Shown: positions 3,007 to 64,000 of the stretch, piece by piece
Numbering within the stretch: the stretch's first letter is position 1
How the letters are laid out: each line of letters starts with the position of its first letter
Source: Brumimicrobium oceani
GTDB lineage: Bacteria > Bacteroidota > Bacteroidia > Flavobacteriales_D > Crocinitomicaceae
NCBI RefSeq assembly: GCF_003143775.1
Contig: NZ_QFRJ01000002.1
Location: forward strand, 206,501-270,500
Reading direction: 5' to 3'
DNA length: 64,000 nucleotides
The notes under the pieces: generated by a model
Databases searched by the model: none
Told to the model about the DNA's origin: nothing
What the model saw: the letters and a program-made list of their open reading frames with translations, nothing else
Program-made: the position numbers and the translations under genes

Positions 3007-3200
3007 TTTTCATCATATTTTATTGACCTCGCAAATTTAAGATTCTTTTAGACATTTTTGAATTACAAACAGTCAATTACAAATTTGTGATTTCAATAAT
3101 TTTTAATCAAAAAAAGCTAAATGAATAATTCTACAGTTGACCATCAGTAACTATAAACGGTTTTGAGAGTTATTCGACGATGAATTAAGATTCAGAAAAA

Positions 3201-3940
3201 GGATTTTCGGGTGAATTTAGTTTATCATACTTTCTGTATCGCTTGCTATCAAAGGCTCTAAGTGTTTTTAACGGTTAGCGAAAAGCCAAATGGGTTGGAT
3301 TTCTATTAAAGGATTTTCGGGTTTATTTGAATTATCACTTTTCCTATATCGCTTACTATCAAGAGCTCTAAGTGTTTTTAACGGTTAATAAAAAGCAAAT
3401 TGGGTTGGATTTCTATTAAAGGATTTTCAGGTTTATTTGAATTATCATATTTCCTGTATCCCCTACCATCAAAGGCTCTAAGTGTTTTTAACGGTTAACT
3501 AAAAAACAAATGGGTTGAATTTCAATTAAAGGGTTTTAGGGTTTATTTGAATTATCACATTTCCTGTATCGCTTGCTATCAAGAGCTCTAAGTGTTTTTA
3601 ACGGTTAACGAAAAGCCAAATGGGTTGAATTTCAATTAAAGGATTTTAGGGTTTATTTGAATTATCACATTTCCTGTATCGCTTGCTATCAAGGGCTCTA
3701 AATGATTTTAACGGTTAACAAAAAGCCAATTGGGTTGCATTTCAATTAAAGGACTTTCAGTTTTATTCAGTTTCTCATATTTTCTGTATCACCTACTATC
3801 AGCAGCACTAATTGTTTTTAACGGTTAATCCGATGCCAAATGGGTTGGATTTCAATTAGCGGATTTTCGGGTTTATTTGAATTATCACATTTCCTGTATC
3901 GCCTGATATCAAGGGCTCTAAGTGTTTTTAACGATTAATA
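3201..3940. repeat. 110-bp tandem repeat array, seven units
   Basis: Units begin at 3201, 3311, 3421, 3531, 3641, 3751 and 3861, an exact 110-bp spacing; the last is cut to about 80 bp. Each unit opens with a variant of GGATTTTCGGGTTTATTTGA and contains TTCCTGTATCGC, a 'ctatcaa(g/a)(g/a)gctctaa' block and the near-invariant TGTTTTTAACGGTTAA. Units differ by scattered substitutions but not by length, so they are old yet length-constrained. There is no long ORF through the array and no spacer-like variable segment, so it is not a CRISPR. Confidence 0.9.
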
Positions 3941-4032
3941 AAATTTGATTCCGCGCAAAAGTTACCGTTAATTTCAATTTAAAACCTTTGAGTTTAACAT
4001 GGTTCATCGAAGATTTTTCTGAACAACAAAGA

Positions 4033-28336: not shown

Positions 28337-29240
28337 AGGGTTTACCGCAAAGGGTGATGAGGAAAAAGAAGGGTTACGCAGAGGGGCGCGGAGGTGCAGA
28401 GGTTCGAGGAGAGCGCCTGTGGCACTTGGTTATTTCACAGAGGGTAAAGGAGGTTTTTCACAGAGGGACATGGAGGAAAAGAAGACAAAGAAGGGTTACG
28501 CAAAGGGGCGCGGAGGCGCAGAGGTTCGCGGAGAGCGCCTGTGGCACTTGGTTATTTCACAGAGGGTAAAGGAGGTTTTTCACAGAGGGACATGGAGGAA
28601 AAGAAGACAAAGAAGGGTTACGCAGAGGTTCGCGGAGGCGCAGAGGTTCGCGGAGAGCGCCTGTGGCACTTGGTTATTTCACAGAGGGTAAAGGAGGTTT
28701 TTCACAGAGGGACACGGAGGAAAAGAAGACAAAGAAGGGTTACGCAGAGGGGCGCGGAGGCGCAGAGGTTCGCGGAGAGCGCCTGTGGCACTTGGTTGTT
28801 TCACAGAGGGACACGGAGGTTTTTCACAGAGGGACATGGAGGAAAAGAAGACAAAGAAGGGTTACGCAAAGGGGCGCGGAGGTGCAGAGGTTCGCGGAGA
28901 GCGCCTGTGGCACTTGGTTATTTCACAGAGGGTAAAGGAGGTTTTTCACAGAGGGACACGGAGGAAAAGAAGACAAAGAAGGGTTACGCAAAGGGGCGCG
29001 GAGGTGCAGAGGTTCGCGGAGAGCGCCTGTGGCACTTGGTTATTTCACAGAGGGTAAAGGAGGTTTTTCACAGAGGGACATGGAGGAAAAGAAGACAAAG
29101 AAGGGTTACGCAAAGGGGCGCGGAGGTGCAGAGGTTCGCAGAGGGTTTGAGTTGAAGGGCGCGGAGAGCGCCTGTGGCACTTGGTTGTTTCACAGAGGGA
29201 CACGGAGGAAAACCGCAGAGGGCGCGGAGGAGGCATGAAG
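28337..29240. repeat. 122-bp tandem repeat array, about seven units, stop-free on the + strand over most of its length
   Basis: CACAGAGGGACA(T/C)GGAGG begins at 28459, 28581, 28703, 28825, 28947, 29069 and 29191, an exact 122-bp spacing, with a degenerate first unit from about 28337. Units include AAGAAGACAAAGAAGGGTTA, CGCGGAGG(C/T)GCAGAGGTTCG and GAGCGCCTGTGGCACTTGG. The unit length is not a multiple of 3, and long stretches lack stop codons in all + frames, so overlapping open frames of up to about 200 codons arise by rotation. They have no start-codon logic or signal peptide, so I treat them as non-coding. A decayed relative lies at 26650-26815. Confidence 0.92.
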
Positions 29241-29935: not shown

Positions 29936-30120
29936 TATTGACGTTGTGGCGCTGCTTTTTTTAATGATTAATGGTTAAGGTTTAATGTTTAACGGGGGAA
30001 GTGGTGGCGCTGTATTATTTCTAATGGTTAACGGGGGATGTGGTGGCGCTGTAATGGGACGCGGATGACGCGGATCTTCGAACGCGGATTTATGCGGATT
30101 TTTTGGGTTTTTTGAATTTT
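29936..30120. repeat. GTGGTGGCGCTGTA repeats and a GCGGATGACG element
   Basis: GTGG(T)GGCGCTG-type units occur at about 29945, 30001 and 30040, separated by TTAATGGTTAA(C) runs. They lead into the GTAATGGGACGCGGATGACG element at 30051-30100, a close match to 23043-23104. All of this is non-coding and leads directly into the A/B array. Confidence 0.7.
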
Positions 30121-30990
30121 CAGATTCCCTTGATTAAACAAACACATTGCAAATAAGAGTATTCCCAATAATCAAAGCTCATCATTTAATCACATTATTC
30201 ACAGTGCTGACAAGAATCAAAGCCCAAACAAAACATCTGAACTGTGATTTTTTTGATTTTCAGATTCCCTTGATTTTAAAAACAAACACGTTTTAAATTA
30301 AAGTATTCCCCATAATCAAAGTATATCATTTAATCACACGAATCACAGTGCTGACAAGGATCATAACGCAAACAAAACATCTGAACTGTGATTCTTTTGA
30401 TTTTCAGATTCCCTTGATTAAACAATCACATTGCAAATAAGAGTATTCCCAAAAATCAAAGCCATCATTTAATCACAGGAATCATAGTGCTGACAAGAAT
30501 CAAAGCCAAAACAAAACATCTGAACTGTGATTTTTTTGATTTTCAGATTCCCTTGATCTTAAAAACAAACACGTTTTAAATTAAAGTATTCCCCATAATC
30601 AAAGTATATCATTTAATCACACGAATCACAGTGCTGACAAGGATCACAACACAAGCAAAACGTCTGAACTGTGATTTTTTTTTTGATTTTCAGATTCCCT
30701 TGATTAAACAAACACATTGCAAATAAGAGTATTCCCAATAATCAAAGCTCATCATTTAATCACATTATTCACAGTGCTGACAAGAATCAAAGCCCAAACA
30801 AAACGTCTGAACTGTGATTTTTTTGATTTTCAGATTCCCTTGATTTTAAAAACAAACACGTTTTAAATTAAAGTATTCCCCATAATCAAAGTATATCATT
30901 TCATCACATGAATCACAGTGCTGACAAATGGCTAAATCGTAAACTCAATCAAAAACGTCTGACCTGTGATTTTTTTTGATTTTCGGATTT
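30121..30990. repeat. Higher-order repeat array: alternating A and B units, ~285-bp dimer
   Basis: CAGATTCCCTTGAT starts each monomer at 30121, 30261, 30405, 30544, 30691 and 30831, with a decayed one at 30984. Monomers alternate: A units continue TAAACAA(A/T)CACATTGCAAA and B units TTTTAAAAACAAACACGTTT (or one-base variants). The A-to-A distances are 284 and 286, the B-to-B distances 283 and 287. Each monomer ends in CACAGTGCTGACAA ... CTGAACTGTGATTTTTT, where TCACAG and CTGTGA are inverted about 44 bases apart and followed by a T-run. No coding frame runs through it. It fills most of the 29936-31076 gap. Confidence 0.9.
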
Positions 30991-31076
30991 CCTTGATTAC
31001 TAAAAAGCAAACATTCCCCTCCCAAAATTGTAATATCCATACACAATGATTAATATCACGAAAAAAATAAATAGAA

Positions 31077-31637: not shown

Positions 31638-31680
31638 CCGCGAAGAATAGGGAGAGGTTTTAGGGAGAGGACATTAAAGT

Positions 31681-32045
31681 ACCGAATTCCAAGAAAGATT
31701 ACGCTCAGGATTGTTGCCTTCGATCCATTCGACAAGCTCAGGAACCTCAGGCTCAGTCAACGGGATACTCTTCGGTGACTGAGCTTGCCGAAGGTACCGA
31801 ATTTCAAGAAAGATTACGCTCAGGATTGTTGCCTTCGATCCATTCGACAAGCTCAGGAACCTCGAGCTCAGTCAACGGGATACTCTTCGGTGACTGAGCT
31901 TGCCGAAGGTAGCGAATTTCAAAAAAGATTACACTCAGAATTGTTGCCTTCGATCCATTCGACAAGCTCAGGAACCTCGAGCTCAGTCAACGGATTATGC
32001 TTCGGTGACTGAGCTTGCCGAAGGTACCGAATTCCAAGAAAGATT
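31681..32045. repeat. 115-bp tandem array, three units, CTCAGTCA/TGACTGAG family
   Basis: Units start at 31681, 31796 and 31911, exactly 115 apart, with a partial fourth at 32026-32045. Each has ACCGAATT(C/T)CAAGAAAGAT (first base varies), TTGTTGCCTTCGATCCATTC, GACAAGCTCAGGAACCTC and CTCAGTCAACGG, and then TGACTGAGCTTGCCGAAGG. CTCAGTCA and TGACTGAG can form a hairpin with a 16-base loop. The same element appears inverted at 33284-33385, in tandem at 20406-20650 and as a fragment at 34724-34780. Confidence 0.9.
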
Positions 32046-32226
32046 AACTTCTCAGAAATAAATAGCATTTTTCTAATCACCTGAATAACAGACTTAATTC
32101 CAGTTAATTAAAAACACACAAGAAGGTGTATTTTATTAAAATAAGAGCTTCTCCCCGATTTTTAGGGTGCAAAACAACAAGCATTAAATAAAAATGTTTA
32201 TTTTCGCAAACTTAAATGATAATGCA

Positions 32227-34865: not shown

Positions 34866-35240
34866 ATGAATACACAACTTAAAAACCAATGGATTGCTTT
34901 AGAAGAACAATGCCATATTTTATTAAAAGAGAAAATCGCTGAACATAACCAAACAAATGATCATCCATTGTCACGAGCTTTGATTTCAAGCCAGTTGACT
35001 TTTTGTAAAGATGGAGTGCTCATTAATAAAAGAAGTTCTTCTGAAAGTAAAGGAGGAATTAGTGTAATGTTTAATGATATGGCTACATCTGAAATTAAAG
35101 CTAAAATGCTCGCTCTGAATTCGCAAAAACAAAACCACAGTTATTTATATAGCTACAAATTTGAGGAGGTAAACCATTACAACCCGAAGGAAATCGTTGA
35201 ACAGCATTTAAACAACTTATTGAACACAAAAAAGGGATAA
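34866..35240 (+). CDS. Hypothetical protein, paralogue 1 of a locus-specific pair
   Basis: 124 residues, no signal peptide or membrane segment. It shares '[14 protein letters not shown]', 'SQLTFCKDG', 'GGIS/GISI', a '[20 protein letters not shown]' type ending and its length with the protein at 36682-37059. The first 35 or so bases of the two genes are nearly identical. I recognise no family. The pair flanks the TviB-like dehydrogenase gene, so a role in the polysaccharide locus, for example as a binding or regulatory partner, is inferred only from position. The gene has its own A/C-rich leader. Confidence 0.7.
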
Positions 35241-36681: not shown

Positions 36682-37059
36682 ATGAATACACAACTTAAAA
36701 ACCAATGGATCGCTTTAGAAGAAAAATATCATAAATTGCTAAAGGAAAAAGTGAATCAATACAATTCTAGTAGTAACTCCCCTATCCCACAACCAATAAT
36801 TACAAGTCAATTAACTTTTTGTAAGGATGGAATAGTTATTCATAAACTGAGTGAACCTCATTTAAAAAGCGGAATAAGTATAATTGTGAACAATAGCAGT
36901 ATAGCTGAAGTAAAAGAATTAAAGTCCATGAAAGGTGAAAATTCAAACGGATTTTATCATAGCATAGACGTATTTCACTTTGATCAAATCGATGATTACA
37001 ACCCTGAGCAGATTGTTGAAAAAGATTTAGTCCATTTTTGCAAATCATCAGTTGCATAA
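36682..37059 (+). CDS. Hypothetical protein, paralogue 2 of a locus-specific pair
   Basis: 125 residues, related over the whole length to the protein at 34866-35240. Shared blocks are '[14 protein letters not shown]', '[14 protein letters not shown]', 'SGISIIVNN' and 'DYNPEQIVEKDL'. The C-terminus differs most. The 5' leader, unlike the body of the gene, is A/C-rich. The pair is best explained by a duplication, perhaps followed by divergence toward different partners. No function is known to me. Confidence 0.7.
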   Translation: MNTQLKNQWIALEEKYHKLLKEKVNQYNSSSNSPIPQPIITSQLTFCKDGIVIHKLSEPHLKSGISIIVNNSSIAEVKELKSMKGENSNGFYHSIDVFHFDQIDDYNPEQIVEKDLVHFCKSSVA

Positions 37060-38764: not shown

Positions 38765-39379
38765 ATGAAAAAAACAATTCTAGCAGGATACTCTGGACAT
38801 GGGTTTGTAGTTGCCGAGGCTGCACTCTTATCTGATGTTAAAATTGATGGATATTTAGAACCAAATGAAGTATTTCCAAATTATTTTGATTTAGAATATT
38901 TAGGATTTGAAACGGATCCTAATTTCGATTGGAGTGAAAATAATAACTTCATCTTAGGCATTGGTGATAATCAGATACGTCATAAACTAGGAAGTCTAAT
39001 TTCTTCGAAAGAAAAAGTAATTTTAAACATTATACATCCATCAGCTTCAGTTACAGAAATGCTAAAGATTGGTGTAGGGAATTTCATTGCAAGAAATGCT
39101 TCGATTAATCCTCTTGCTGAAATTAGTGATTTTTGCATTATCAATACTGGTGCAATTGTAGAACATGAATGTAAAATAAAAGATGCGGTGCACATAGGGC
39201 CAGGTGCAGTTTTAGCTGGAAATGTTGAAATAGGTGAAAATAATTTTATCGGTGCGAACTCAGTTGTGAAACAAGGCGTGAAAGTTGGTAAAAATGTAAT
39301 AATTGGAGCTGGTTCAGTCATAATAAAAAATGTAGAAGATAACTCAAAAATAGTTGGAAACCCCGGAAGAAAAATATGA
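38765..39379 (+). CDS. NeuD/PglD-type sugar O- or N-acetyltransferase (copy 1)
   Basis: 204 residues. An N-terminal Rossmann-like part ('TILAGYSGHGFVVAEAAL', 'LGIGDNQIRHKLG') is followed by a left-handed beta-helix ('CIINTGAIVEHECKIKDAVHIGPGAVLAGNVEIGENNFIGANSVV'). The His of 'EHECKI' and of 'VHIGPG' are the catalytic-site histidines of PglD/NeuD. In legionaminic or bacillosamine pathways this fold acetylates a 4-amino sugar; in sialic acid loci NeuD O-acetylates. It lies directly before neuB, and the start overlaps no gene. It is 204 residues against 206 for the second copy at 60781. Confidence 0.88.
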   Translation: MKKTILAGYSGHGFVVAEAALLSDVKIDGYLEPNEVFPNYFDLEYLGFETDPNFDWSENNNFILGIGDNQIRHKLGSLISSKEKVILNIIHPSASVTEMLKIGVGNFIARNASINPLAEISDFCIINTGAIVEHECKIKDAVHIGPGAVLAGNVEIGENNFIGANSVVKQGVKVGKNVIIGAGSVIIKNVEDNSKIVGNPGRKI

Positions 39380-40389
39380 TAGATAAAGTAATTATTATAG
39401 CAGAAGCTGGAGTGAATCACAATGGCGACATGAACCTTGCTAAACAGCTTATTGATGCTGCAGCAGATGCAGGAGTTGATTATGTGAAGTTTCAAACGTT
39501 TAAAGCTTCCAAGTTAGTAACAAAAAGTGCTACTAGAGCAGATTACCAAAATGAAAATACGGGTAACAATGACTCTCAATATGAAATGCTTAAAAAGCTA
39601 GAATTATCAAAGAAAAATCATTTAGATTTAATAACTTATTGTCAAGCCAAAGGTGTTAAATTTCTTTCTACTGGTTTTGACCTGGACAGCTTAACTTTTC
39701 TTTCTGACATTGGAATAACTTTATCAAAAATACCATCAGGAGAAATAACAAATCTGCCTTACTTAGAAAAAGTTGCATCCTTGTATTCAGAATTTATTCT
39801 TTCAACAGGAATGGCCAATATAGATGAAGTTAAAGATGCTTACAAAGTTTTAATTGATAATGGGGTTAAATCTTCTAATATCACAATCTTACATTGTAAT
39901 ACAGAGTACCCCACTCCAATGGAAGACGTTAACCTAAAAGCAATGCTTCACATAAAAGAAGAGCTTGGTACGGCTATAGGTTATTCAGATCACACTTTAG
40001 GTATTGAAGTGCCAATTGCAGCTGTTGCATTAGGTGCAAAAGTAATTGAAAAGCATTTTACACTGGATAGAAATTTAACTGGACCAGATCATAGGGCTTC
40101 CTTAGAACCTAATGAACTAAAAGAAATGGTAAAAGCAATTCGAAATATTGAAATAGCTATTTCTGGCTCTGGAATTAAAGAGCCATCTCCTTCTGAAACT
40201 AAAAACAAAACAATAGTTCGAAAGAGTATAATAGCATTAAAAAAAATTAAAAAAGGTGAAGTATTGACTAAAAATAATTTAGGAATTAAAAGACCTGGAT
40301 CAGGGATAAGTCCAATGCTTTGGAATCATATAATTGGAACAAAAGCAATAAGAGACTTTAATGCTGAAGAAATTATAAAATTGAATTGA
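39376..40389 (+). CDS. neuB: N-acetylneuraminate/legionaminate synthase
   Basis: 337 residues. 'IIIAEAGVNHNGDMNLAKQLIDAAADAG' starts the TIM-barrel NeuB domain, with 'VKFQTFKASKLVT' and 'TILHCNTEYPTPMEDVNLKAM' as substrate-binding blocks and 'GYSDHTLG' and 'EKHFTLDRNLTGPDH' as metal-binding blocks. A SAF-type antifreeze-like domain ends the protein (about residues 280-337). It condenses a 6-carbon 2-acetamido sugar with phosphoenolpyruvate to give a nonulosonic acid. Whether the product is Neu5Ac or legionaminic acid depends on the upstream enzymes; LegC and PtmE here favour the latter. It overlaps neuD by 4 bases and neuC by 4. Confidence 0.93.
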   Translation: MIDKVIIIAEAGVNHNGDMNLAKQLIDAAADAGVDYVKFQTFKASKLVTKSATRADYQNENTGNNDSQYEMLKKLELSKKNHLDLITYCQAKGVKFLSTGFDLDSLTFLSDIGITLSKIPSGEITNLPYLEKVASLYSEFILSTGMANIDEVKDAYKVLIDNGVKSSNITILHCNTEYPTPMEDVNLKAMLHIKEELGTAIGYSDHTLGIEVPIAAVALGAKVIEKHFTLDRNLTGPDHRASLEPNELKEMVKAIRNIEIAISGSGIKEPSPSETKNKTIVRKSIIALKKIKKGEVLTKNNLGIKRPGSGISPMLWNHIIGTKAIRDFNAEEIIKLN

Positions 40390-41552
40390 TTTTGAGAAAG
40401 ATATGTGTCATAACGGGAACTAGAGCAGAATATGGATTGCTTCACTGGACAATGAAAGCTATAAACGACTCTAAAGATTTGGAGTTACAAATAGTAGTCA
40501 CTGGGATGCATCTATCTCCAGAATTTGGTAACACCTATAAAGAAATTGAAGCTGATGGATTTACAATAAATAAAAAAATAGAAATGCTTTTATCTTCTGA
40601 TACACCAATTGGAGTCTCGAAAAGCATGGGGCTAGCAATGATTTCGTTTGCTGACGTTTATGCGGACTTAAAACCAGATATTATAGTAGTTTTAGGGGAT
40701 AGGTTTGAAATATTTTCCGCTGTAAGTAGCGCTATGATTGCACGAATACCTGTAGCACATTGTCATGGGGGTGAAGCTACAGAGGGCTTAATTGACGAAC
40801 CTATCCGTCATTCACTAACTAAAATGTCACATATACATTTCCCATCAACCGATGAATACAAAAAAAGAATTATTCAATTAGGTGAAAAACCAAGTAGTGT
40901 GCATAATGTTGGTGCTCTTGGAATTGAAAGTATAAAAAAGATGGCACTGTTAGACCGAGATACATTCGAGAAGTCAATTAATTTTAAACTTGATGCAAAA
41001 CATCATTTCTTGGTCACATTTCATCCAGTAACATTAGAGAACTCTACGGCAGAAAAGCAGATAAAAGAACTTCTTGAGGCTTTTAAGGAATTAGATGATA
41101 TTAAAATAATATTCACTAAAGCAAACGCAGACACAGATGGAAGAATAATTAATTCAGAAATTGATGACTTTGTAAGAGAGAATCCTGAAATTTCAACTGT
41201 ATACAACTCTTTAGGACAACTTCGATACTTGTCAGCTTTACAGTTTATTGACGTAGTAATAGGAAATTCATCTAGTGGTTTAATTGAGGTCCCTTCATTT
41301 AAGAAGGCCACAATCAATATTGGAGATAGGCAAAAAGGTAGAATTAAAGCTGAAAGTGTTATCGATTGCTTACCAGAAAAAGTAAACATAAAGAAAGCTA
41401 TTATTAACGCCATATCACCTGAATTTAAAAAAATTGTTGAAAAAGTTAAAAACCCATATGAAAATGGTTTCTCTTCAAATAAAATTGTAGATGTTCTTCA
41501 AAAAGTAGAATTAACTAATCTGATTAAAAAGAAATTTTATGACATTGAGTAA
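40386..41552 (+). CDS. neuC: Hydrolysing UDP/GDP-sugar 2-epimerase (NeuC/LegG type)
   Basis: 388 residues. 'ICVITGTRAEYGLLHWTM' opens the GT-B-like fold, 'VVLGDRFEIFSAVSSAMIARIPVAHCHGGE' and 'GLIDEPIRHSLTKMSHIHF' are NeuC blocks, and 'VVIGNSSSGLIEVPSFKKATINIGDRQKGR' is the C-terminal nucleotide-binding block. It removes the nucleotide and inverts C2 to release a free 2-acetamido sugar for NeuB. The start codon is a TTG at 40386 (or 40392), overlapping the neuB stop. In the legionaminic pathway the same family acts as LegG on a 2,4-diacetamido sugar. Confidence 0.93.
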   Translation: MILRKICVITGTRAEYGLLHWTMKAINDSKDLELQIVVTGMHLSPEFGNTYKEIEADGFTINKKIEMLLSSDTPIGVSKSMGLAMISFADVYADLKPDIIVVLGDRFEIFSAVSSAMIARIPVAHCHGGEATEGLIDEPIRHSLTKMSHIHFPSTDEYKKRIIQLGEKPSSVHNVGALGIESIKKMALLDRDTFEKSINFKLDAKHHFLVTFHPVTLENSTAEKQIKELLEAFKELDDIKIIFTKANADTDGRIINSEIDDFVRENPEISTVYNSLGQLRYLSALQFIDVVIGNSSSGLIEVPSFKKATINIGDRQKGRIKAESVIDCLPEKVNIKKAIINAISPEFKKIVEKVKNPYENGFSSNKIVDVLQKVELTNLIKKKFYDIE

Positions 41553-41553
41553 A

Positions 41554-42447
41554 ATGAAAATACTTTTCATAGGGACTGTTGATTTTTCCTACTCTTGTTT
41601 AGAGCACCTAATTGAAAACAATTTTAAAATATGTGGTGTAATCACAAAAAGAAAATCTAATTTCAACTCCGATTTTAGTGACTTAACACCACTTTGTAAC
41701 AAATTCAATATACCAACCTATTTTGACGAAAAATCGAACAATGAGACCAAAGAGGAGTTCATTTCAAATCAAAAACCCGACATAATCTATTGTTTTGGAT
41801 GGTCATATCTACTGCCAACTAGCATACTTAATGCTACAAAACATGGGGTAATAGGTTTTCATCCTTCGCTTTTACCAAACAATAGAGGCAGGCATCCTAT
41901 TATTTGGGCTCTTTTTCTAGGATTAAAAAAAACAGGGTCATCATTCTTTATCATGGATAAAGATGCAGATACTGGTGACATTATCTCGCAAAAAGTAATT
42001 AAGGTATCCCCACAAGACACTGCAACAACGTTATATGATGAAATTAAATGCATAGCTTTAAATCAAATAATTGATTTTTCAAACCATTATCAAAATAAAG
42101 GAGAAGCTCCTTTAAGAATTAAACAAAACAAAAACCAAGGAAATAGTTGGAGAAAAAGAGGGAAATTAGATGGGATAATAGATTTCCGAATGAATTCCCT
42201 TTCTATTTTCAATCTAGTTAGAGCTTTGACTCATCCATACGTCGGAGCACATATAGAAATCGAAAATAAAGAAATAAAGATTTGGGAAGTTTCAATATCC
42301 AAAGTGGATTATCCGATTAATTATGAACCAGGAAAAGTCTTAGATATAATAGATAATACTAAAATTGTAGTAAAAACTTACGATTCTGCAATTATTCTTG
42401 AAAAGCATGAATTTACAGAACTACCTAAAATAAATGAATACTTATGA
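41554..42447 (+). CDS. Formyltransferase-family protein with Gly in place of the catalytic Asn
   Basis: 297 residues from the ATG at 41554 (MKILFIGTVDFSYSC); an ATG at 41539 overlaps neuC and gives five extra residues. Residues 1-190 are a formyl-transferase N domain ('GVIGFHPSLLPNNRGRHPIIWAL', 'DADTGDIISQK') and the rest a C domain. The usual N-H-D active site is Gly101, His103 and Asp139, so Asn is lost. It sits between neuC and a PIG-L deacetylase, which suggests N-formylation of a deacetylated sugar; the Asn change leaves the chemistry open. It resembles the 'GFHPSLLP' group that I recall from nonulosonate loci. Confidence 0.83.
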   Translation: MKILFIGTVDFSYSCLEHLIENNFKICGVITKRKSNFNSDFSDLTPLCNKFNIPTYFDEKSNNETKEEFISNQKPDIIYCFGWSYLLPTSILNATKHGVIGFHPSLLPNNRGRHPIIWALFLGLKKTGSSFFIMDKDADTGDIISQKVIKVSPQDTATTLYDEIKCIALNQIIDFSNHYQNKGEAPLRIKQNKNQGNSWRKRGKLDGIIDFRMNSLSIFNLVRALTHPYVGAHIEIENKEIKIWEVSISKVDYPINYEPGKVLDIIDNTKIVVKTYDSAIILEKHEFTELPKINEYL

Positions 42448-43118
42448 GTAAAAATATAGTTATTATTTCAGCACACCCCGATGATGAAGTACTTGGAGTT
42501 GGAGGAACCTTATTAAAACATAAGAAAAACGGTGATGAAATATATTGGATTATTACTACTAGTATTTTTGAAGAGAATGGTTTTTCAAATGAAAGAGTAA
42601 ATTCAAGACAAATTGAAATAAATGAAGTCGCAGAGAGAATAGGAGCTAAAGCCATCTATAAACTTGATTACCCTACTATGTCCCTATCATCGGAGACACT
42701 AATTGATATGGTTCCTAAAATTTCAGAAATATTTTCAGAGGTTAAACCAGAAGTTATTTATTGTTTAAATAGATCAGACGCTCATTCAGATCATAGAGTT
42801 ACATTCGACGCGGTAATGGCATGTACCAAATCTTTTAGATATCCATACATAAAAAGCGTTTTAATGTATGAGTGTATTTCGGAAACAGAATTTGCACCAG
42901 CACTACCCGAAAAAACTTTCATGCCGAACTATTTTGTTGATATTTCCGAGTTTATGGATGAAAAAATCGATATCATGAAGATCTATCATTCTGAATTAGG
43001 TGAACACCCTTTTCCTAGATCAATTCGAAACATAGAAGCTTTGGCTACATTCAGAGGAGCCAGTGTAGGAGTAGAATATGCAGAAGCATTCCAACTAGTT
43101 AAATATATTGATAAATAA
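42444..43118 (+). CDS. PIG-L family N-deacetylase
   Basis: 224 residues. 'IISAHPDDEVLGVGGTLLKH' has the zinc-binding AHPDDE motif (His11, Asp14), and 'RSDAHSDHRVTFDAV' carries the second zinc histidine (His117) in the HSDH motif. PIG-L-fold enzymes remove acetyl groups from N-acetylated sugars such as GlcNAc-containing substrates. It overlaps the formyltransferase gene by 4 bases and lies before ptmE, so a joint deacetylation and re-acylation of an amino sugar or of the nonulosonic acid is plausible. The substrate is unproven. Confidence 0.88.
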   Translation: MSKNIVIISAHPDDEVLGVGGTLLKHKKNGDEIYWIITTSIFEENGFSNERVNSRQIEINEVAERIGAKAIYKLDYPTMSLSSETLIDMVPKISEIFSEVKPEVIYCLNRSDAHSDHRVTFDAVMACTKSFRYPYIKSVLMYECISETEFAPALPEKTFMPNYFVDISEFMDEKIDIMKIYHSELGEHPFPRSIRNIEALATFRGASVGVEYAEAFQLVKYIDK

Positions 43119-43128
43119 CTATTCCCTA

Positions 43129-44175
43129 ATGGATAATAATACACACCTCATTTCAAAAGATAAAAGCGTAAGAGACGCACTAAAACGTTTAGACGAACTT
43201 GGTGCTGACGCTATCTTATTCATTGTAGATAATAAGACTGTGCTTATCGGATCACTTACAGACGGAGACTTAAGAAGAGGTTTTATTAAAGGACTTGGAT
43301 TTGATAATTCAATAATGGACTTCATTCAAGGAAATCCAAAGTTCATTTTTGATGATGAATATAATCAAGCTAAATTAGAAGACTTTAAAGGTCGCAACTT
43401 TAAGATCATTCCTATTCTAAATCGCGAAAATCAGATTGTTGATATATTAAATTTTAGAGAAAAATCAACGATTATTCCTGCTGATGCCGTAATCATGGCT
43501 GGAGGAAAAGGTACACGTTTAAGACCGTTAACAGAAAAAACACCTAAACCACTTCTAATAGTTGGTAACAAGCCGATTATAGAATACAATATTGATAGAC
43601 TTGCAAAAATAGGAGTTGAAAATATTCATATCAGTATTAATTATTTAGGTGAACAATTAGAAGATTATTTTGGTGATGGTTCAAATAAAAAATTAAACAT
43701 AAAGTATCTAAAGGAAGATAAGCCATTAGGAACTATAGGATCAATTCTTCTGGCAGATGAGTTTGAGCATGAGGATATTTTTGTTATGAATAGTGATTTA
43801 TTAACGAACATAGACTTTGCCGATTTTTATAAAAGTTACAAAGAATCTGGAGCAGACATGGCTGTAGCAGCGACAAGTTACCACGTTGACGTACCCTATG
43901 CCGTGCTAGAAACAGACGGTAAAAATAAAGTGAAATCGTTAAAAGAAAAGCCTAGATATACTTACTTTTCTAACGCAGGAATCTATTTGATGAAAAAGAG
44001 TTTACTCGAAATGATTCCGAAAGATGAGTTCTATGATATCACTGATTTGATGGAAAATGTTCTTTCTATGGATAATATACTCATAACCTATCCTATCAAC
44101 GGATATTGGTTAGACATTGGAAAACATGAGGATTTCAAGAAGGCGCAGGAAGATGTTAAACACATTAAATTTTAA
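43129..44175 (+). CDS. ptmE: CBS-domain nucleotidyltransferase, PtmE-like
   Basis: 348 residues from the ATG at 43129; an upstream TTG at 43108 lies inside the preceding gene. Residues 1-115 hold a pair of CBS motifs ('ALKRLDELGADAILFIVDN', 'SLTDGDLRRG'). Residues 119-345 are a nucleotidyltransferase ('AVIMAGGKGTRLRPLTEKTPKPLL', 'NSDLLTNIDFADFY'). In Campylobacter, PtmE makes GDP-N-acetylglucosamine-type donors for legionaminic acid; this two-domain order is its hallmark. The CBS part may sense adenosine nucleotides. It ends 1 base before the CMP-sugar synthetase. Confidence 0.88.
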   Translation: MDNNTHLISKDKSVRDALKRLDELGADAILFIVDNKTVLIGSLTDGDLRRGFIKGLGFDNSIMDFIQGNPKFIFDDEYNQAKLEDFKGRNFKIIPILNRENQIVDILNFREKSTIIPADAVIMAGGKGTRLRPLTEKTPKPLLIVGNKPIIEYNIDRLAKIGVENIHISINYLGEQLEDYFGDGSNKKLNIKYLKEDKPLGTIGSILLADEFEHEDIFVMNSDLLTNIDFADFYKSYKESGADMAVAATSYHVDVPYAVLETDGKNKVKSLKEKPRYTYFSNAGIYLMKKSLLEMIPKDEFYDITDLMENVLSMDNILITYPINGYWLDIGKHEDFKKAQEDVKHIKF

Positions 44176-44176
44176 T

Positions 44177-44860
44177 ATGAAACCATTAGTTGTTATTCCT
44201 GCAAGAGGTGGTTCAAAAGGTGTTCCAGGTAAAAATATTAAAGAATTAGGAGGTAAACCTTTAATACAACATACCATTGATGCTGCAAAAGTAGTTTTTA
44301 GTGAAAGTCAAATAATCGTAAGCACGGATAGCGAAGAAATAAGAAACAAAGTGATAGAAAATGGTTTACAAGTACCATTTTTAAGACCCGCTGAACTCGC
44401 AACTGATTCTGCGGGAACTTATGAAGTTTTACTTCATGCAATAAACTTTATGGAGTCTAAAGGAATTGAATGTGATACTTTAATTTTATTACAACCTACA
44501 TCTCCATTCAGAACTTCAGAACACATTAAAGAAGCATTATCATTATACCATAATGATTTGGACATGGTAGTTTCGGTTAAAGAAACAAGTTCTAATCCAT
44601 ACTTTGTCTTAAAAGAAGAAAATCAATTAGGCTTTCTAGAGAATTCTAAAGAAGGCAACTTTACAAGAAGACAAGATTGCCCGAAAGTATATGAATTGAA
44701 TGGTGCAATTTATATTATAAACATTGAATCCTTGAAAAAAATGAAAATCAATGAATTTACAAAGGTGAAAAAGTTTGTTATGGATGATATTTCATCTCAT
44801 GATATTGATACGATGTTGGATTGGGATATAGCTGAATTTTTAATTAACTATGAATTGTGA
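44177..44860 (+). CDS. neuA: CMP-nonulosonate cytidylyltransferase (NeuA/PtmB/LegF type)
   Basis: 227 residues from the ATG at 44177; an in-frame start at 44117 lies inside ptmE and adds only basic residues. 'VIPARGGSKGVPGKNIKELGGKPLIQHTI' is the CTP-binding block and 'LILLQPTSPFRTSEHIKEA' the second conserved block. 'VKKFVMDDISSHDIDTMLDWDIAE' ends the enzyme as in CMP-sialate synthetases. It activates the nonulosonic acid with CTP for transfer. No C-terminal esterase domain is present. It overlaps the wzx start by 4 bases. Confidence 0.92.
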   Translation: MKPLVVIPARGGSKGVPGKNIKELGGKPLIQHTIDAAKVVFSESQIIVSTDSEEIRNKVIENGLQVPFLRPAELATDSAGTYEVLLHAINFMESKGIECDTLILLQPTSPFRTSEHIKEALSLYHNDLDMVVSVKETSSNPYFVLKEENQLGFLENSKEGNFTRRQDCPKVYELNGAIYIINIESLKKMKINEFTKVKKFVMDDISSHDIDTMLDWDIAEFLINYEL

Positions 44861-60780: not shown

Positions 60781-61401
60781 ATGAACTCAAATAAAAAAAT
60801 CGCCTTCATAGGATACTCAGGTCATGCTTTCGTCTGCATCGAAACAGCACAAGCTATGAATTTAGATATTCTAGGTTATCACGAATTTACTGAATCAAAA
60901 AACAACCCATATAAATTACCGTTTTTAGACATTGAAGAAAAATTCGAGCAACATGATGCGATGCTTTTTGGAAGTATAGGAGATAACTATATCCGTGAAA
61001 AGGTTTACCATAAAATCATTGCAGTTAAAGAAGGTGTTTTTACGACTTTACAACATCCATCTGCAATAGTTTCAAGCACAGCAAAGATTGGAGTGAACAC
61101 ATTAATTTCTGCAGGAGTCATAATAAATCCATTGAGTGAAATAGGAATTGGTTGTATTATAAACACCGGTGCAGTAGTAGAACATGAATGTAAAATAAAA
61201 GACTTTGCTCATATTGCTCCCGGAGCTATACTAGCAGGAAATGTAACTGTTGGAGAAAGAAGTTTTATTGGTGCTGGATCAGTTGTTAAACAAGGTGTAA
61301 CGATAGGCAAAGATGTAATAGTAGGCGCAGGTGCTGTGGTCATTAAGGATATTCCAGATGGTCAAACTGTGGTAGGAAATCCCGCGAAACCAATTGTTTA
61401 A
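60781..61401 (+). CDS. NeuD/PglD-type acetyltransferase (copy 2)
   Basis: 206 residues, a paralogue of the protein at 38765. An N-terminal Rossmann-like part ('IAFIGYSGHAFVCIETAQAM') precedes a left-handed beta-helix ('CIINTGAVVEHECKIKDFAHIAPGAILAGNVTVGERSFIGAGSVV'). The catalytic-type His residues lie in 'EHECKI' and 'AHIAPG'. It lies two gene positions before the LegC-type aminotransferase, so it is the better positional candidate for the 4-amino-sugar acetyltransferase (LegH/PglD role). It ends the second part of the operon; hairpins follow. Confidence 0.87.
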   Translation: MNSNKKIAFIGYSGHAFVCIETAQAMNLDILGYHEFTESKNNPYKLPFLDIEEKFEQHDAMLFGSIGDNYIREKVYHKIIAVKEGVFTTLQHPSAIVSSTAKIGVNTLISAGVIINPLSEIGIGCIINTGAVVEHECKIKDFAHIAPGAILAGNVTVGERSFIGAGSVVKQGVTIGKDVIVGAGAVVIKDIPDGQTVVGNPAKPIV

Positions 61402-61415
61402 AGATTCAATAATTC

Positions 61416-61438
61416 AATAAGAATCTTCGATTCTTATT
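61416..61438 (+). terminator. Hairpin after neuD copy 2
   Basis: AATAAGAATC (61416-61425), loop TTC, GATTCTTATT (61429-61438): a perfect 10-bp stem 14 bases after the stop codon. The T-run after it is weak (CAAAAATTT), so it may be a terminator or a pause. Confidence 0.55.
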
Positions 61439-61556
61439 CAAAAATTTAAAGATTGGGGAGTGAAATATTAACTGATAGAAAAGAAGAGATTCCTCCATCA
61501 CTAAAAATCAAAGATTTTAAGCGCTGTTCGGAATGACAGAGAATTGGATGTTTTAT

Positions 61557-61601
61557 TGGGAGAAAAGTTGAAAAAGCTTCGCTTTTTCAACTTTTCTCCC
61601 A
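61557..61601. repeat. 21-bp inverted repeat within an outer inverted pair
   Basis: GGGAGAAAAGTTGAAAAAGC (61558-61577), loop TTC, GCTTTTTCAACTTTTCTCCC (61581-61600), extended by T/A at the ends. The outer arms CGGAATGACAG and CTGTCATTCCG lie at 61529-61539 and 61620-61630. The nesting resembles REP-like elements seen in Bacteroidota. No U-run follows, so terminator function is uncertain. Confidence 0.8.
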
Positions 61602-61806
61602 CTCTCATATGTTCTACAACTGTCATTCCGATGGAGTAATACGACTGAGGAATCCCTTTTTTGCCAGTCGTTAAAACAAAAATGTAAGAATCTTTAAATA
61701 GATAAAAATCCTCCTCTTGCCCCCTTCCCGATTTTAATCGGGAGGAGACAAAGGGATTCAACGAATTAACATATAAACGAAACAACAAATTAACAACATA
61801 AAAAAA

Positions 61807-62955
61807 ATGATACCCTTATCAATCCCAAAAATAGAAGGAAACGAGTCGAAGTACGTCCTTGATTGTTTAACAACCGGTTGGATTTCATCAGCTGGAAGTT
61901 ATGTTACGCAATTTGAAGAAATGATTGCTGAATATGCAGGTGCTAAATATGGCGTTGCTTGTATGAACGGAACTGTTGGACTTCACATAGCACAAATCTT
62001 GTTGGGTGTTACGGCTGCCGATCATGTGATTGCACCAAATATTACATTTATTGCAACATTGAATGCGATAAAATATACAGGAGCACAACCCATTTTGATT
62101 GATGTCGATGCAGACAATTGGCAAATGGATTTGAATTTATTGGAGAAATATCTTCAAGAAAATACAGAATTAAAGACATCTAACAACGGAACTTTTTGTT
62201 TTGATAAATCCACTGGGAAAAGAGTTCGTGCGATTATGCCAGTTCACGTACTAGGAAACTTTGGTGATATGAACCGCATGTTGGAAATAGCAGGGAAATA
62301 TCATTTAGATATCATCGAAGACAGTACGGAAGCATTAGGAAGTACATTTGATGGAAAACACGCTGGAACATTCGGTAAAATTGGAGTTTTTAGCTTCAAT
62401 GGAAATAAAATTATTTCTACTGGAGGTGGTGGAGTAATTGTTACCGACGATGAAGAAATCGCAAAAAAAGCGCGTCACTTAACAACTCAAGCGAAAGTCA
62501 GTGCGATGGATTACATTCATGATGAAATTGGTTATAACTATCGATTAGTGAATGTACTTGCAGCAATTGGAGTTGCACAAATGGAAACTTTCCCAGAAAC
62601 GTTAAAAGCGAAGAAAAAAATGGATGCTTTTTATCGTGAACACTTAGAAGGAGTTGGAGATATCAAGTTTCAATCAATTCCAGAAGGAACAGATCCAAAC
62701 TGTTGGTTGTTTACGTTCAGCACATCTCGCATGCGTGAGTTATTGGATTATTTGAACAAGAATGGAGTTCAATCTCGTCCATTCTGGATGCCGATGAATC
62801 AATTAGCCATGTTTAAAGACGATATTTATATTAATAAAAAAGATGTTTCTGCAAGCGTTTATGAGAATAGCATTAGTATTCCTAGTTCGGCTGGGATAAC
62901 GGGAGAACAGTTGGAGGAGGTTGTGGAGACGATAAAGGGGTTTTACGAGAAATAG
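61807..62955 (+). CDS. legC: LegC-type aminotransferase (DegT/DnrJ/EryC1 family)
   Basis: 382 residues. The PLP lysine is K201 in 'SFNGNKIISTGGGG'. 'IPLSIPKIEGNESKYVLDCLTTGWISSAGSYVTQFEEM', 'TTQAKVSAMDYIHDEIGYNYRLVNVLAAIGVAQME' and 'KRVRAIMPVHVLGNFGDM' closely fit the LegC group, which makes the 4-amino sugar of legionaminic acid, using a 4-keto-6-deoxy substrate from a dehydratase. The dehydratase next to it is incomplete in the window. It starts with an ATG after an A-rich leader. Confidence 0.88.
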   Translation: MIPLSIPKIEGNESKYVLDCLTTGWISSAGSYVTQFEEMIAEYAGAKYGVACMNGTVGLHIAQILLGVTAADHVIAPNITFIATLNAIKYTGAQPILIDVDADNWQMDLNLLEKYLQENTELKTSNNGTFCFDKSTGKRVRAIMPVHVLGNFGDMNRMLEIAGKYHLDIIEDSTEALGSTFDGKHAGTFGKIGVFSFNGNKIISTGGGGVIVTDDEEIAKKARHLTTQAKVSAMDYIHDEIGYNYRLVNVLAAIGVAQMETFPETLKAKKKMDAFYREHLEGVGDIKFQSIPEGTDPNCWLFTFSTSRMRELLDYLNKNGVQSRPFWMPMNQLAMFKDDIYINKKDVSASVYENSISIPSSAGITGEQLEEVVETIKGFYEK

Positions 62956-63450
62956 GTGATTAAAGGATTCATCTTAATTAAGAAAATTCCATCGTGATAT
63001 CAATTGAATATATCTTGTTAATTAAACATAAAAGCTGATTTGAAACACCTCTCCCTTTGGAGGGAGATACAGAGGGAGGATAATATAGGTGATCAAAGGT
63101 TTTTACGAGAAATAGGGTTTATCCTATAGATTATGAGTTCTTACTTTATCTAATAGCAATGTTTATTTTAAATGTTAAAACGGAACTTAAAGTACATGAA
63201 TTTAAATAATTTTAAACTAAATCTATTCATTTATGTATTGTTTGCTTACAAAAGCATATAGAGCTTTGAGTATTATGCTTTAGATAGGCCAATTAATTTA
63301 GACAAGTAGTTAAATCCTCCCCCCGCCCCCTCCAAAGGGGGAGACACTAAGAATCCTTGAATGCTAAATAACAAATAAACGACTTCACTAATTCACAAAA
63401 AATCGAATCAACAAATCAACTAAAAAACAAATTAACGAAAAAACTAAAAA
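62956..63450. other. Intergenic region with a gene-end remnant and a palindromic element
   Basis: 495 bases. At 63089-63115 the reading GTG-ATC-AAA-GGT-TTT-TAC-GAG-AAA-TAG gives VIKGFYEK-stop, repeating the IKGFYEK-stop ending of legC. A CTCCCTTTGGAGGGAG-type palindrome lies at about 63053-63068 and a CCCCCTCCAAAGGGGGAG element at 63328-63345. The last 90 bases are A/C-rich and poor in G. No other gene was recognised. Confidence 0.65.
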
Positions 63451-64000
63451 ATGAACATAATAGACATCCCTAATTTCATAAACACCCACATAACAAAAAG
63501 AGCAACAAGTCTTTTTGAGAAGGATATTGAAGCGAACGCAGCACTTTTAACTAAAAAAATTGAAGGTAAATCAGTACTTGTTATTGGAGGAGCTGGAACA
63601 ATTGGTTCTTCTTATATCAAAGCAGTCCTGAAGTTTAAGCCAGGTAAATTATATGTGGTTGATACGAATGAGAACGGTTTAACTGAATTAACAAGAACTT
63701 TGCGTTCAGATGCAAATATGTTTGTTCCTGAGGAATACAAAACTTATCCAATGAGTTTTGGAGATTCTGTATTTAGAAAAATGTTCTTGGCTGAAGGTCC
63801 ATTTGATATTGTAGCGAATTTTGCAGCACACAAGCACGTTAGAAGCGAGAAAGATAAATACTCTATTGAGGCGATGATTGTAAATAATGTTTTCAAAGCG
63901 AAAGAGTTTTTAGATTTACTGGTTGATAACAAACCAGAGCATTTCTTTTGTGTTTCCACAGATAAAGCAGCGAATCCGGTTAACGTAATGGGTGCTAGTA
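63451..64000 (+). CDS. CapD-type nucleotide-sugar dehydratase (Polysacc_synt_2), 3' end cut off
   Basis: The first 183 codons are visible and the gene runs off the right edge. 'GKSVLVIGGAGTIGSSYIKAVLKFKPGKLYVVDTNENGLTELTRTLRS' is the NAD-binding domain start (GGAGTIG). 'FDIVANFAAHKHVRSEKDKYSIEAMIVNN' and 'FFCVSTDKAANPVNVMGAS' are CapD/FlaA1 signature blocks. Family members are UDP-GlcNAc 4,6-dehydratases or 4-epimerases. Next to a LegC-type aminotransferase it most likely provides the 4-keto-6-deoxy substrate, although classical LegB belongs to another SDR group. The A/C-rich leader precedes the ATG. Confidence 0.85.
   Translation, partial: MNIIDIPNFINTHITKRATSLFEKDIEANAALLTKKIEGKSVLVIGGAGTIGSSYIKAVLKFKPGKLYVVDTNENGLTELTRTLRSDANMFVPEEYKTYPMSFGDSVFRKMFLAEGPFDIVANFAAHKHVRSEKDKYSIEAMIVNNVFKAKEFLDLLVDNKPEHFFCVSTDKAANPVNVMGAS

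Follow-up and report, generated by a model that had tools for sequence, protein, structure and literature searches.

The window analysed here is a stretch of 64,000 nucleotides from Brumimicrobium oceani (contig NZ_QFRJ01000002.1, positions 206,501 to 270,500 of the forward strand). At 38765-44860 it carries seven open, tightly packed genes on the + strand, whose families were assigned with Pfam and NCBIfam. Their products are of the NeuD, NeuB, NeuC, formyltransferase, PIG-L, PtmE and NeuA types, in the order given by the original prediction, which had been made from the letters of the DNA (Table 1). We consider it probable that this is a legionaminic-acid operon with an optional acetyl-to-formyl cassette, in which PIG-L would deacetylate the C2 nitrogen of the sugar precursor and its partner would formylate it, leading to 5-formamido-7-acetamido-legionaminic acid (Leg5Fo7Ac).

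Table 1. Genes of the operon and of the second sugar cluster, in window coordinates
Feature	Coordinates	Strand	Evidence and remarks
NeuD/PglD-type sugar N-acetyltransferase, probable LegH	38765..39379	+	TIGR03570 195.9 bits (cut-off 160.8); PglD_N, Hexapep
NeuB-type synthase, probable LegI	39376..40389	+	PF03102 E 1.9e-96; TIGR03569 495.1 bits (cut-off 399.65)
NeuC-type hydrolysing 2-epimerase (Epimerase_2), probable LegG	40386..41552	+	PF02350 E 2.2e-89; TIGR03568 486.4 bits (cut-off 235.9)
Formyltransferase-fold enzyme, GxHP class	41539..42447	+	Formyl_trans_N and Formyl_trans_C (Pfam)
PIG-L de-N-acetylase	42444..43118	+	PF02585 E 5.6e-23
PtmE-type sugar-1-phosphate nucleotidyltransferase, CBS-like N-terminus	43108..44175	+	PF00483 (NTP_transferase) E 1.7e-42
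NeuA/LegF-type cytidine monophosphate (CMP)-sugar synthetase	44117..44860	+	PF02348 (CTP_transf_3) E 1.4e-25; probable ATG at 44177
Second NeuD/PglD-type acetyltransferase, next to LegC	60781..61401	+	TIGR03570 206.5 bits
LegC-family aminotransferase (C4 amine)	61807..62955	+	TIGR04181 453.5 bits (cut-off 420)
LegB-type 4,6-dehydratase	63451..64000	+	continues beyond the window, to 64662 in its numbering

The two inserted genes, formyltransferase and PIG-L, had been described as having 4-base overlaps. This holds for the junction between them (ATGA, 42444-42447), which is the only 4-base overlap among their three junctions. NeuC and the formyltransferase gene overlap by 14 bases, or are separated by 1 base if the start is the ATG at 41554, and with the ATG at 43129 as the start of PtmE, the probable one as read from the bases, 10 bases separate it from PIG-L. 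The CBS match of the PtmE-type protein is weak (23.3 bits in Pfam, slightly below the cut-off of 24).

Homologues of LegB, LegC, LegH, LegG, LegI and LegF are all present in this one genome, together with a PtmE type. The LegC gene announced 17 kb further on was indeed found there, and its product matches the LegC of another leg operon (locus L065) better than do the two other matching proteins of the genome. The LegB-type protein shares 41% identity with the LegB of that operon (E 4.6e-97), the other match in the genome being far weaker (8.1e-26). The six Leg steps and PtmE are the counterparts of those of the guanosine diphosphate (GDP)-type CMP-legionaminic acid pathway of Campylobacter jejuni, although in the window the operon itself lacks LegB and LegC. 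Passages on pathways of the C. jejuni type (PMC13317340, PMC4481668) list neither a PIG-L nor a formyltransferase step, whereas the window has both; the second of these sources gives a NeuD-type LegH beside LegI. Comparison with other loci, including the leg locus of Halorubrum sp. PV6 treated below, supports the assignment of the operon to legionaminic-acid synthesis, as had been proposed.

The formyltransferase-like protein and its PIG-L partner

Formyltransferases use a catalytic set of Asn, His and Asp. In the alignment, the window protein has the motif Gly106-Phe-His108-Pro109 where ArnA and methionyl-tRNA formyltransferases have Asn-x-His, and it keeps Asp144. This glycine in place of the catalytic asparagine had been missed by the original prediction. 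H108 and D144 are invariant in two alignments, one with 11 and the other with 50 sequences. The structural model has a mean predicted local distance difference test score (pLDDT) of 95.6, and its nearest solved structures are ArnA, the best match, and methionyl-tRNA formyltransferases. Fold and domain layout are also those of WbkC, FdtF, QdtF, VioF, PseJ and the formyltransferase domain of ArnA; in contrast to these sugar N-formyltransferases, the window class has Gly for Asn, a GWS + GxHP signature and a PIG-L partner. Because the domains, fold, His and Asp are those of the Asn-His-Asp class and the Asn is not, we leave the protein outside that class and suggest that it would work like one of its members.

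The His-Asp-Asp...His residues are the functional motif of PIG-L/LmbE de-N-acetylases. In the window PIG-L these correspond to H11, D13, D14 and H117, which all 50 aligned sequences have, and the protein shares the fold and the HPDDE...DH motif of this family (pLDDT of the model 93.9), the nearest structures being diacetylchitobiose deacetylases, then BshB. A BshB1-type assignment was rejected, since the score of 69.3 bits is below the curated cut-off of 182.5. A further PIG-L, the only other one in this genome, lies on contig C8 and looks BshB-like. The window PIG-L probably removes the acetyl group at C2/N5.

Formyltransferase-like frames were collected from all loci (201, of which 173 distinct, and 172 classed after omitting the window's own). 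These loci were drawn from best matches (up to 30 per search, and 80 of the 124 in the main scan), with flanks often of 1.5 kb, and related sequences in the following counts are not independent. His and Asp are present in all 172 rows. At the place of the asparagine, 101 have Gly, followed by His-Pro in 92 (GxHP) and by His without Pro in 9; 70 are NxH and one is IxH. A PIG-L gene lies within 1 kb of 91 of the 92 GxHP genes, of none of the nine other GxH genes, of 6 of the 70 NxH genes, and not of the IxH gene. S89, part of the signature, is found in 90/92 GxHP sequences against 4/70 of the N type. On a tree of a thinned set (96 rows), Gly-type and Asn-type rows fall on separate sides with weak support (52/82). 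The GxHP label requires 3 changes on this tree, whose deep forks are weak, and a single origin of GxHP is neither shown nor excluded by it.

The sequences with GxH and no Pro (L004, L005, L041, L043, L164, L165, L168, L169 and L172) form two tree clades, and PIG-L was not found in the flanks examined at these nine loci. Together with six archaeal NxH genes that do have a PIG-L, they led us to reject a strict link between Gly and PIG-L and to narrow it to GxHP.

Distribution of the pair was followed in several samples. In a set of 240 genomes from the window's family, the remaining matches at E <=1e-20 show 26-33% identity, and in the 30 loci read from this search the Gly type stands beside PIG-L in only one (L006) besides the window's own. 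A phylum sample of 395 genomes yielded three matches at 44-53%, all three with the pair and NeuC adjoining. A scan of genome contigs with a single protein query found nothing; a second, with a four-sequence alignment as query, gave 124 relatives, of which the best 80 were kept. PIG-L adjoins the formyltransferase gene in 79 of these 80 loci, the exception (L111) ending at a contig end 69 bases past the gene. At a stricter E of 1e-10, a PIG-L neighbour is found in 77/80, in each case following the formyltransferase on the same strand, and the three loci without it (L105, L111, L148) lie near locus ends. Chance adjacency was rejected on the 79/80 figure. The pair is therefore not peculiar to the window genome, and the search for it in neu loci of other genomes, suggested originally, was successful. 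Gelidibacter maritimus shows the same gene order, and Leg5Fo7Ac is predicted for it too. By record titles, about 16 phyla are represented, two titles naming no group and many of the loci being metagenome bins, possibly misassigned. All 80 loci are GxHP, largely because of shared ancestry, the query alignment itself being GxHP; the two peptide patterns used in the scan do not cover the motif site. A search of plasmid proteins gave 242 records, and the 30 listed are mostly named ArnA or methionyl-tRNA formyltransferase.

NeuB, NeuC or both are present in 69 of the 80 loci, most often directly adjoining the pair. Among formyltransferase genes with NeuB or NeuC no more than 1.5 kb away, PIG-L is found within 1 kb of 70/71 GxHP genes versus 0/12 NxH genes; for five of these 12 (L067, L075, L102, L122, L148) a PIG-L lies further off, beside a GxHP gene.

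The pair is not a constant part of such operons. With NeuC as query, matches came from 46 genomes of a phylum sample of 395; the 30 best loci were then read, each with flanks of 1.5 kb. Four, the window's own included, carry both genes, and 26 have neither a GxHP gene nor a PIG-L, five of them (L230, L235, L237, L238, L239) with another formyltransferase-like gene. The order LegC-NeuD-NeuB-NeuC-PtmE-NeuA without the pair was found in L249, L250 and L251. Since look-alike operons exist without it, the pair behaves as an optional cassette, and from this pattern the two genes look to be gained or lost together. Over 59 loci, the pairwise distances of formyltransferase, PIG-L, NeuB and NeuC correlate (r 0.42-0.63, above the maximum of 500 permutations for each pair), although shared species history alone could be the cause.

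The leg locus of Halorubrum sp. PV6

N-formyl legionaminic acid is already known. The original prediction held that N-formylation was recorded for pseudaminic-type sugars only, which is wrong: 5-N-formyl-legionaminic acid has been reported from Halorubrum sp. PV6, on its S-layer glycoprotein, the assignment to position 5 resting on an earlier paper (PMC6137143). N-formyl also appears among the N-acyl groups of such sugars in a review (PMC6388019), and formyltransferase genes are mentioned in flagellin glycosylation islands by two genome surveys (PMC5109656, PMC4875605). For PV6, HrrPV6_1050 was named as a possible N-formyltransferase; the string 'deacetyl' is absent from the main text of that report, and no deacetylase is named there (PMC6137143). 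For LegI and LegF, the authors of that report employed Haloferax volcanii as host.

Our archaeal sample of 392 genomes contains one, G730, that we take to be Halorubrum sp. PV6 from two matches: of three genomes searched for the published 24-residue S-layer peptide, G730 has it at 100% identity, and a stretch of 4401 bases from plasmid pHrrPV6 is present in G730 at 100% and at the same coordinates. Its locus reads LegC-LegB-NeuA-NeuC-Fmt-NeuD-PIG-L-NeuB in Pfam, as the locus numbers HrrPV6_1046-1053 imply. The formyltransferase is of the GxHP type, and at the place of HrrPV6_1052, unnamed in the paper's section on the locus (PMC6137143), there is a PIG-L. G730 has two other Formyl_trans_N proteins, one matching PurN above the cut-off, with PurH just under, and one a PurU-type deformylase just under; both look like housekeeping enzymes.

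The PV6 locus and the window share LegC, LegB, NeuA, NeuC, a GxHP formyltransferase-like gene, NeuD, PIG-L and NeuB, and the window thus has the gene set of the PV6 type, a GxHP gene and a PIG-L within a leg locus. The gene order differs, with PIG-L and NeuB on the opposite strand in PV6, and identities are 24% for the formyltransferase and 31% for PIG-L. As both genes occur in the PV6 locus, the comparison lends support to the original idea that the pair may take off one N-acyl group and add formyl. A second archaeal genome (G1012, L198) has LegB, LegC, NeuD, PIG-L, GxHP, NeuB and NeuA together. In a third (G702, L200), NeuB stands beside an NxHP enzyme, with NeuC, NeuA, LegB and LegC, and PIG-L was not found.

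Proposed pathway and its alternatives

In legionaminate, N5 derives from the C2 nitrogen of the hexosamine and N7 from its C4 nitrogen. For substrate, order of steps, donor and product we propose the following. PIG-L would take off the N-acetyl group at C2, and the amine so freed would be formylated by the formyltransferase-fold protein, while LegH would acetylate the C4 amine, the later N7. LegG would then release and epimerise the sugar, LegI would condense the product with phosphoenolpyruvate, C2-N becoming N5 and C4-N becoming N7, and LegF would yield CMP-5-formamido-7-acetamido-legionaminic acid (CMP-Leg5Fo7Ac). In published pathways, LegI condenses 2,4-diacylamino-6-deoxymannose with a three-carbon unit (PMC6137143), and LegH is the N-acetyltransferase of the 4-amino sugar, acylating its C4 amine (PMC13317340). 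Because N5 starts with the acetyl group of N-acetylglucosamine, an N-formyl there needs a de-N-acetylase plus a formyltransferase, as the cassette appears to encode. A formyl group at N7, the nitrogen acylated at the LegH step, would need just a formyltransferase replacing LegH.

Loci with an NxH formyltransferase bear on this distinction. In L247, L248 and L254 such a gene lies between LegC and NeuB, and NeuD and PIG-L were not found (Pfam check for L247); in L253 it lies on the other side of NeuB. L067, L075 and L102 have an NxH gene in the LegC-NeuB slot, no NeuD found, and the cassette in addition (Pfam check for L067 and L075). As the LegH slot is there filled by the NxH formyltransferase, the cassette likely serves the other nitrogen. 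One enzyme per nitrogen is the simplest reading, and it predicts a di-N-formyl sugar for these three loci. More generally, we propose, with confidence about evenly balanced, a two-slot N-acyl code: slot 1 would hold NeuD (7-N-acetyl) or NxH (7-N-formyl), slot 2 would be empty (5-N-acetyl) or hold PIG-L + GxHP (5-N-formyl), and all four combinations occur. GxHP proteins would then be Asn-independent formyltransferases acting on the C2 amine of the deacetylated sugar.

Three other explanations were considered. The pair might swap the acyl group at C2/N5 as proposed, with the Gly-type enzyme transferring a group other than formyl or using a donor other than formyl-tetrahydrofolate. This we judge unlikely, though it is the best placed of the three. 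Asn is replaced by Gly not only in the window protein but also in 101 of the 172 others, 92 of which are GxHP; this speaks for it, as does the weakly supported separation of Gly-type and Asn-type sequences on the tree. On the other hand, His and Asp are kept in every classed sequence, the model matches ArnA and other formyltransferases, and PV6, a reported maker of formyl-legionaminate, has a GxHP gene in its leg locus and only housekeeping-like members of the family elsewhere.

It is less likely still that the pair modifies another surface-polysaccharide sugar, for example of the bacillosamine type, and merely shares the operon. Two genomes (G025, G512) do have GxHP, PIG-L, LegC and NeuD with no NeuB match in the genome, and NeuB and NeuC are both missing from the flanks examined in 11/80 loci; but in the other 69 at least one of them is present, mostly directly beside the pair, and the distances of the four proteins correlate, though here shared species history could suffice.

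ArnA, WbkC, FdtF and QdtF, all among the solved sugar formyltransferases matched here, act on C3 or C4 amines, which counts for a third explanation, that PIG-L strips the acetyl group added by LegH and its partner formylates N7 (hexosamine C4), giving Leg5Ac7Fo. This appears very improbable, as an acetyl put on and then taken off is wasteful, an NxH formyltransferase stands between LegC and NeuB, NeuD not being found, both without the pair (L247, L248, L254) and with it (L067, L075, L102), and N5 is the formylated position in the product published for PV6 (PMC6137143).

Several observations nevertheless weigh against the cassette as an N5-formylating unit of a legionaminate operon. The window protein and its 80 kept relatives all have Gly at the catalytic-Asn place, and with the Asn absent formyl transfer by the GxHP class is not assured. 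LegC and LegB lie 17 kb from the operon, beside a second NeuD; we infer that they serve it. A PtmE match is absent from the 18 kb read around the PV6 locus, whereas the window operon has PtmE, and the nucleotide may be uridine diphosphate or GDP. Slot 1 holds a NeuD-type match in 54 of the 80 loci and an NxH gene in L075, L102, L122 and L148, the remainder being unrecognised or cut; L122 and L148, which combine the cassette with both an NxH gene and NeuD, are a poorer fit to one enzyme per nitrogen. The pair is, moreover, not restricted to nonulosonates. Nine of the 11 loci with neither NeuB nor NeuC in the flanks examined are from Pseudobutyrivibrio/Butyrivibrio (L091, L095, L104, L107, L108, L113, L115-L117; flanks <=8 kb, shorter in L091). 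G025 (L062) and G512 (L069) have the pair with NeuD and LegC, which suggests that it can act on the sugar before the NeuB step, and G618 (L052) has it in a 3.75 kb stretch, again with no NeuB match in the genome; in these three, the pair perhaps serves N-formylated bacillosamine-type sugars. Finally, six archaeal loci of one clade (L192-L196, L199) couple PIG-L with an NxH enzyme, with no NeuB in 17-18 kb and a NeuB elsewhere in each genome. The PIG-L of these loci is of a different type (HPDDMELEAGG in L192), and its neighbour is an NxHP formyltransferase with an RGQH motif; the two might be another deacetylate-and-formylate pair, for a different sugar.

Surroundings of the operon and implications

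The NeuD, LegC and LegB genes from 60781 to 64000 and onward are followed by a sugar-phosphate transferase gene (L153:4742-5470), and this stretch looks like a bacillosamine-type set. One LegB/LegC couple may supply both this set and the legionaminate operon. Two similar reading frames of 124-125 amino acids (34866-35240 and 36682-37059) lie amid the sugar genes; neither has a Pfam match, and the first has no NCBIfam match either. A scan for promoters and terminators gave signals no higher than the shuffle level. Long tandem arrays were seen at 3198-3943 (unit of 110 bases), 28365-29143 (122), 30108-31013 (144 or 283) and 31679-32046 (115).

For the PIG-L partner, the glycine class and the two-slot arrangement, no description was found in our searches of open-licence papers. 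As a gene signature, the pair would allow genomes of many phyla to be read for the N-acyl pattern of their legionaminic acids, and the GxHP class points to enzymes of the formyltransferase fold without a residue that is regarded as catalytic. The two-slot reading predicts four products, and if it is true, di-N-formyl legionaminic acid should exist in nature.

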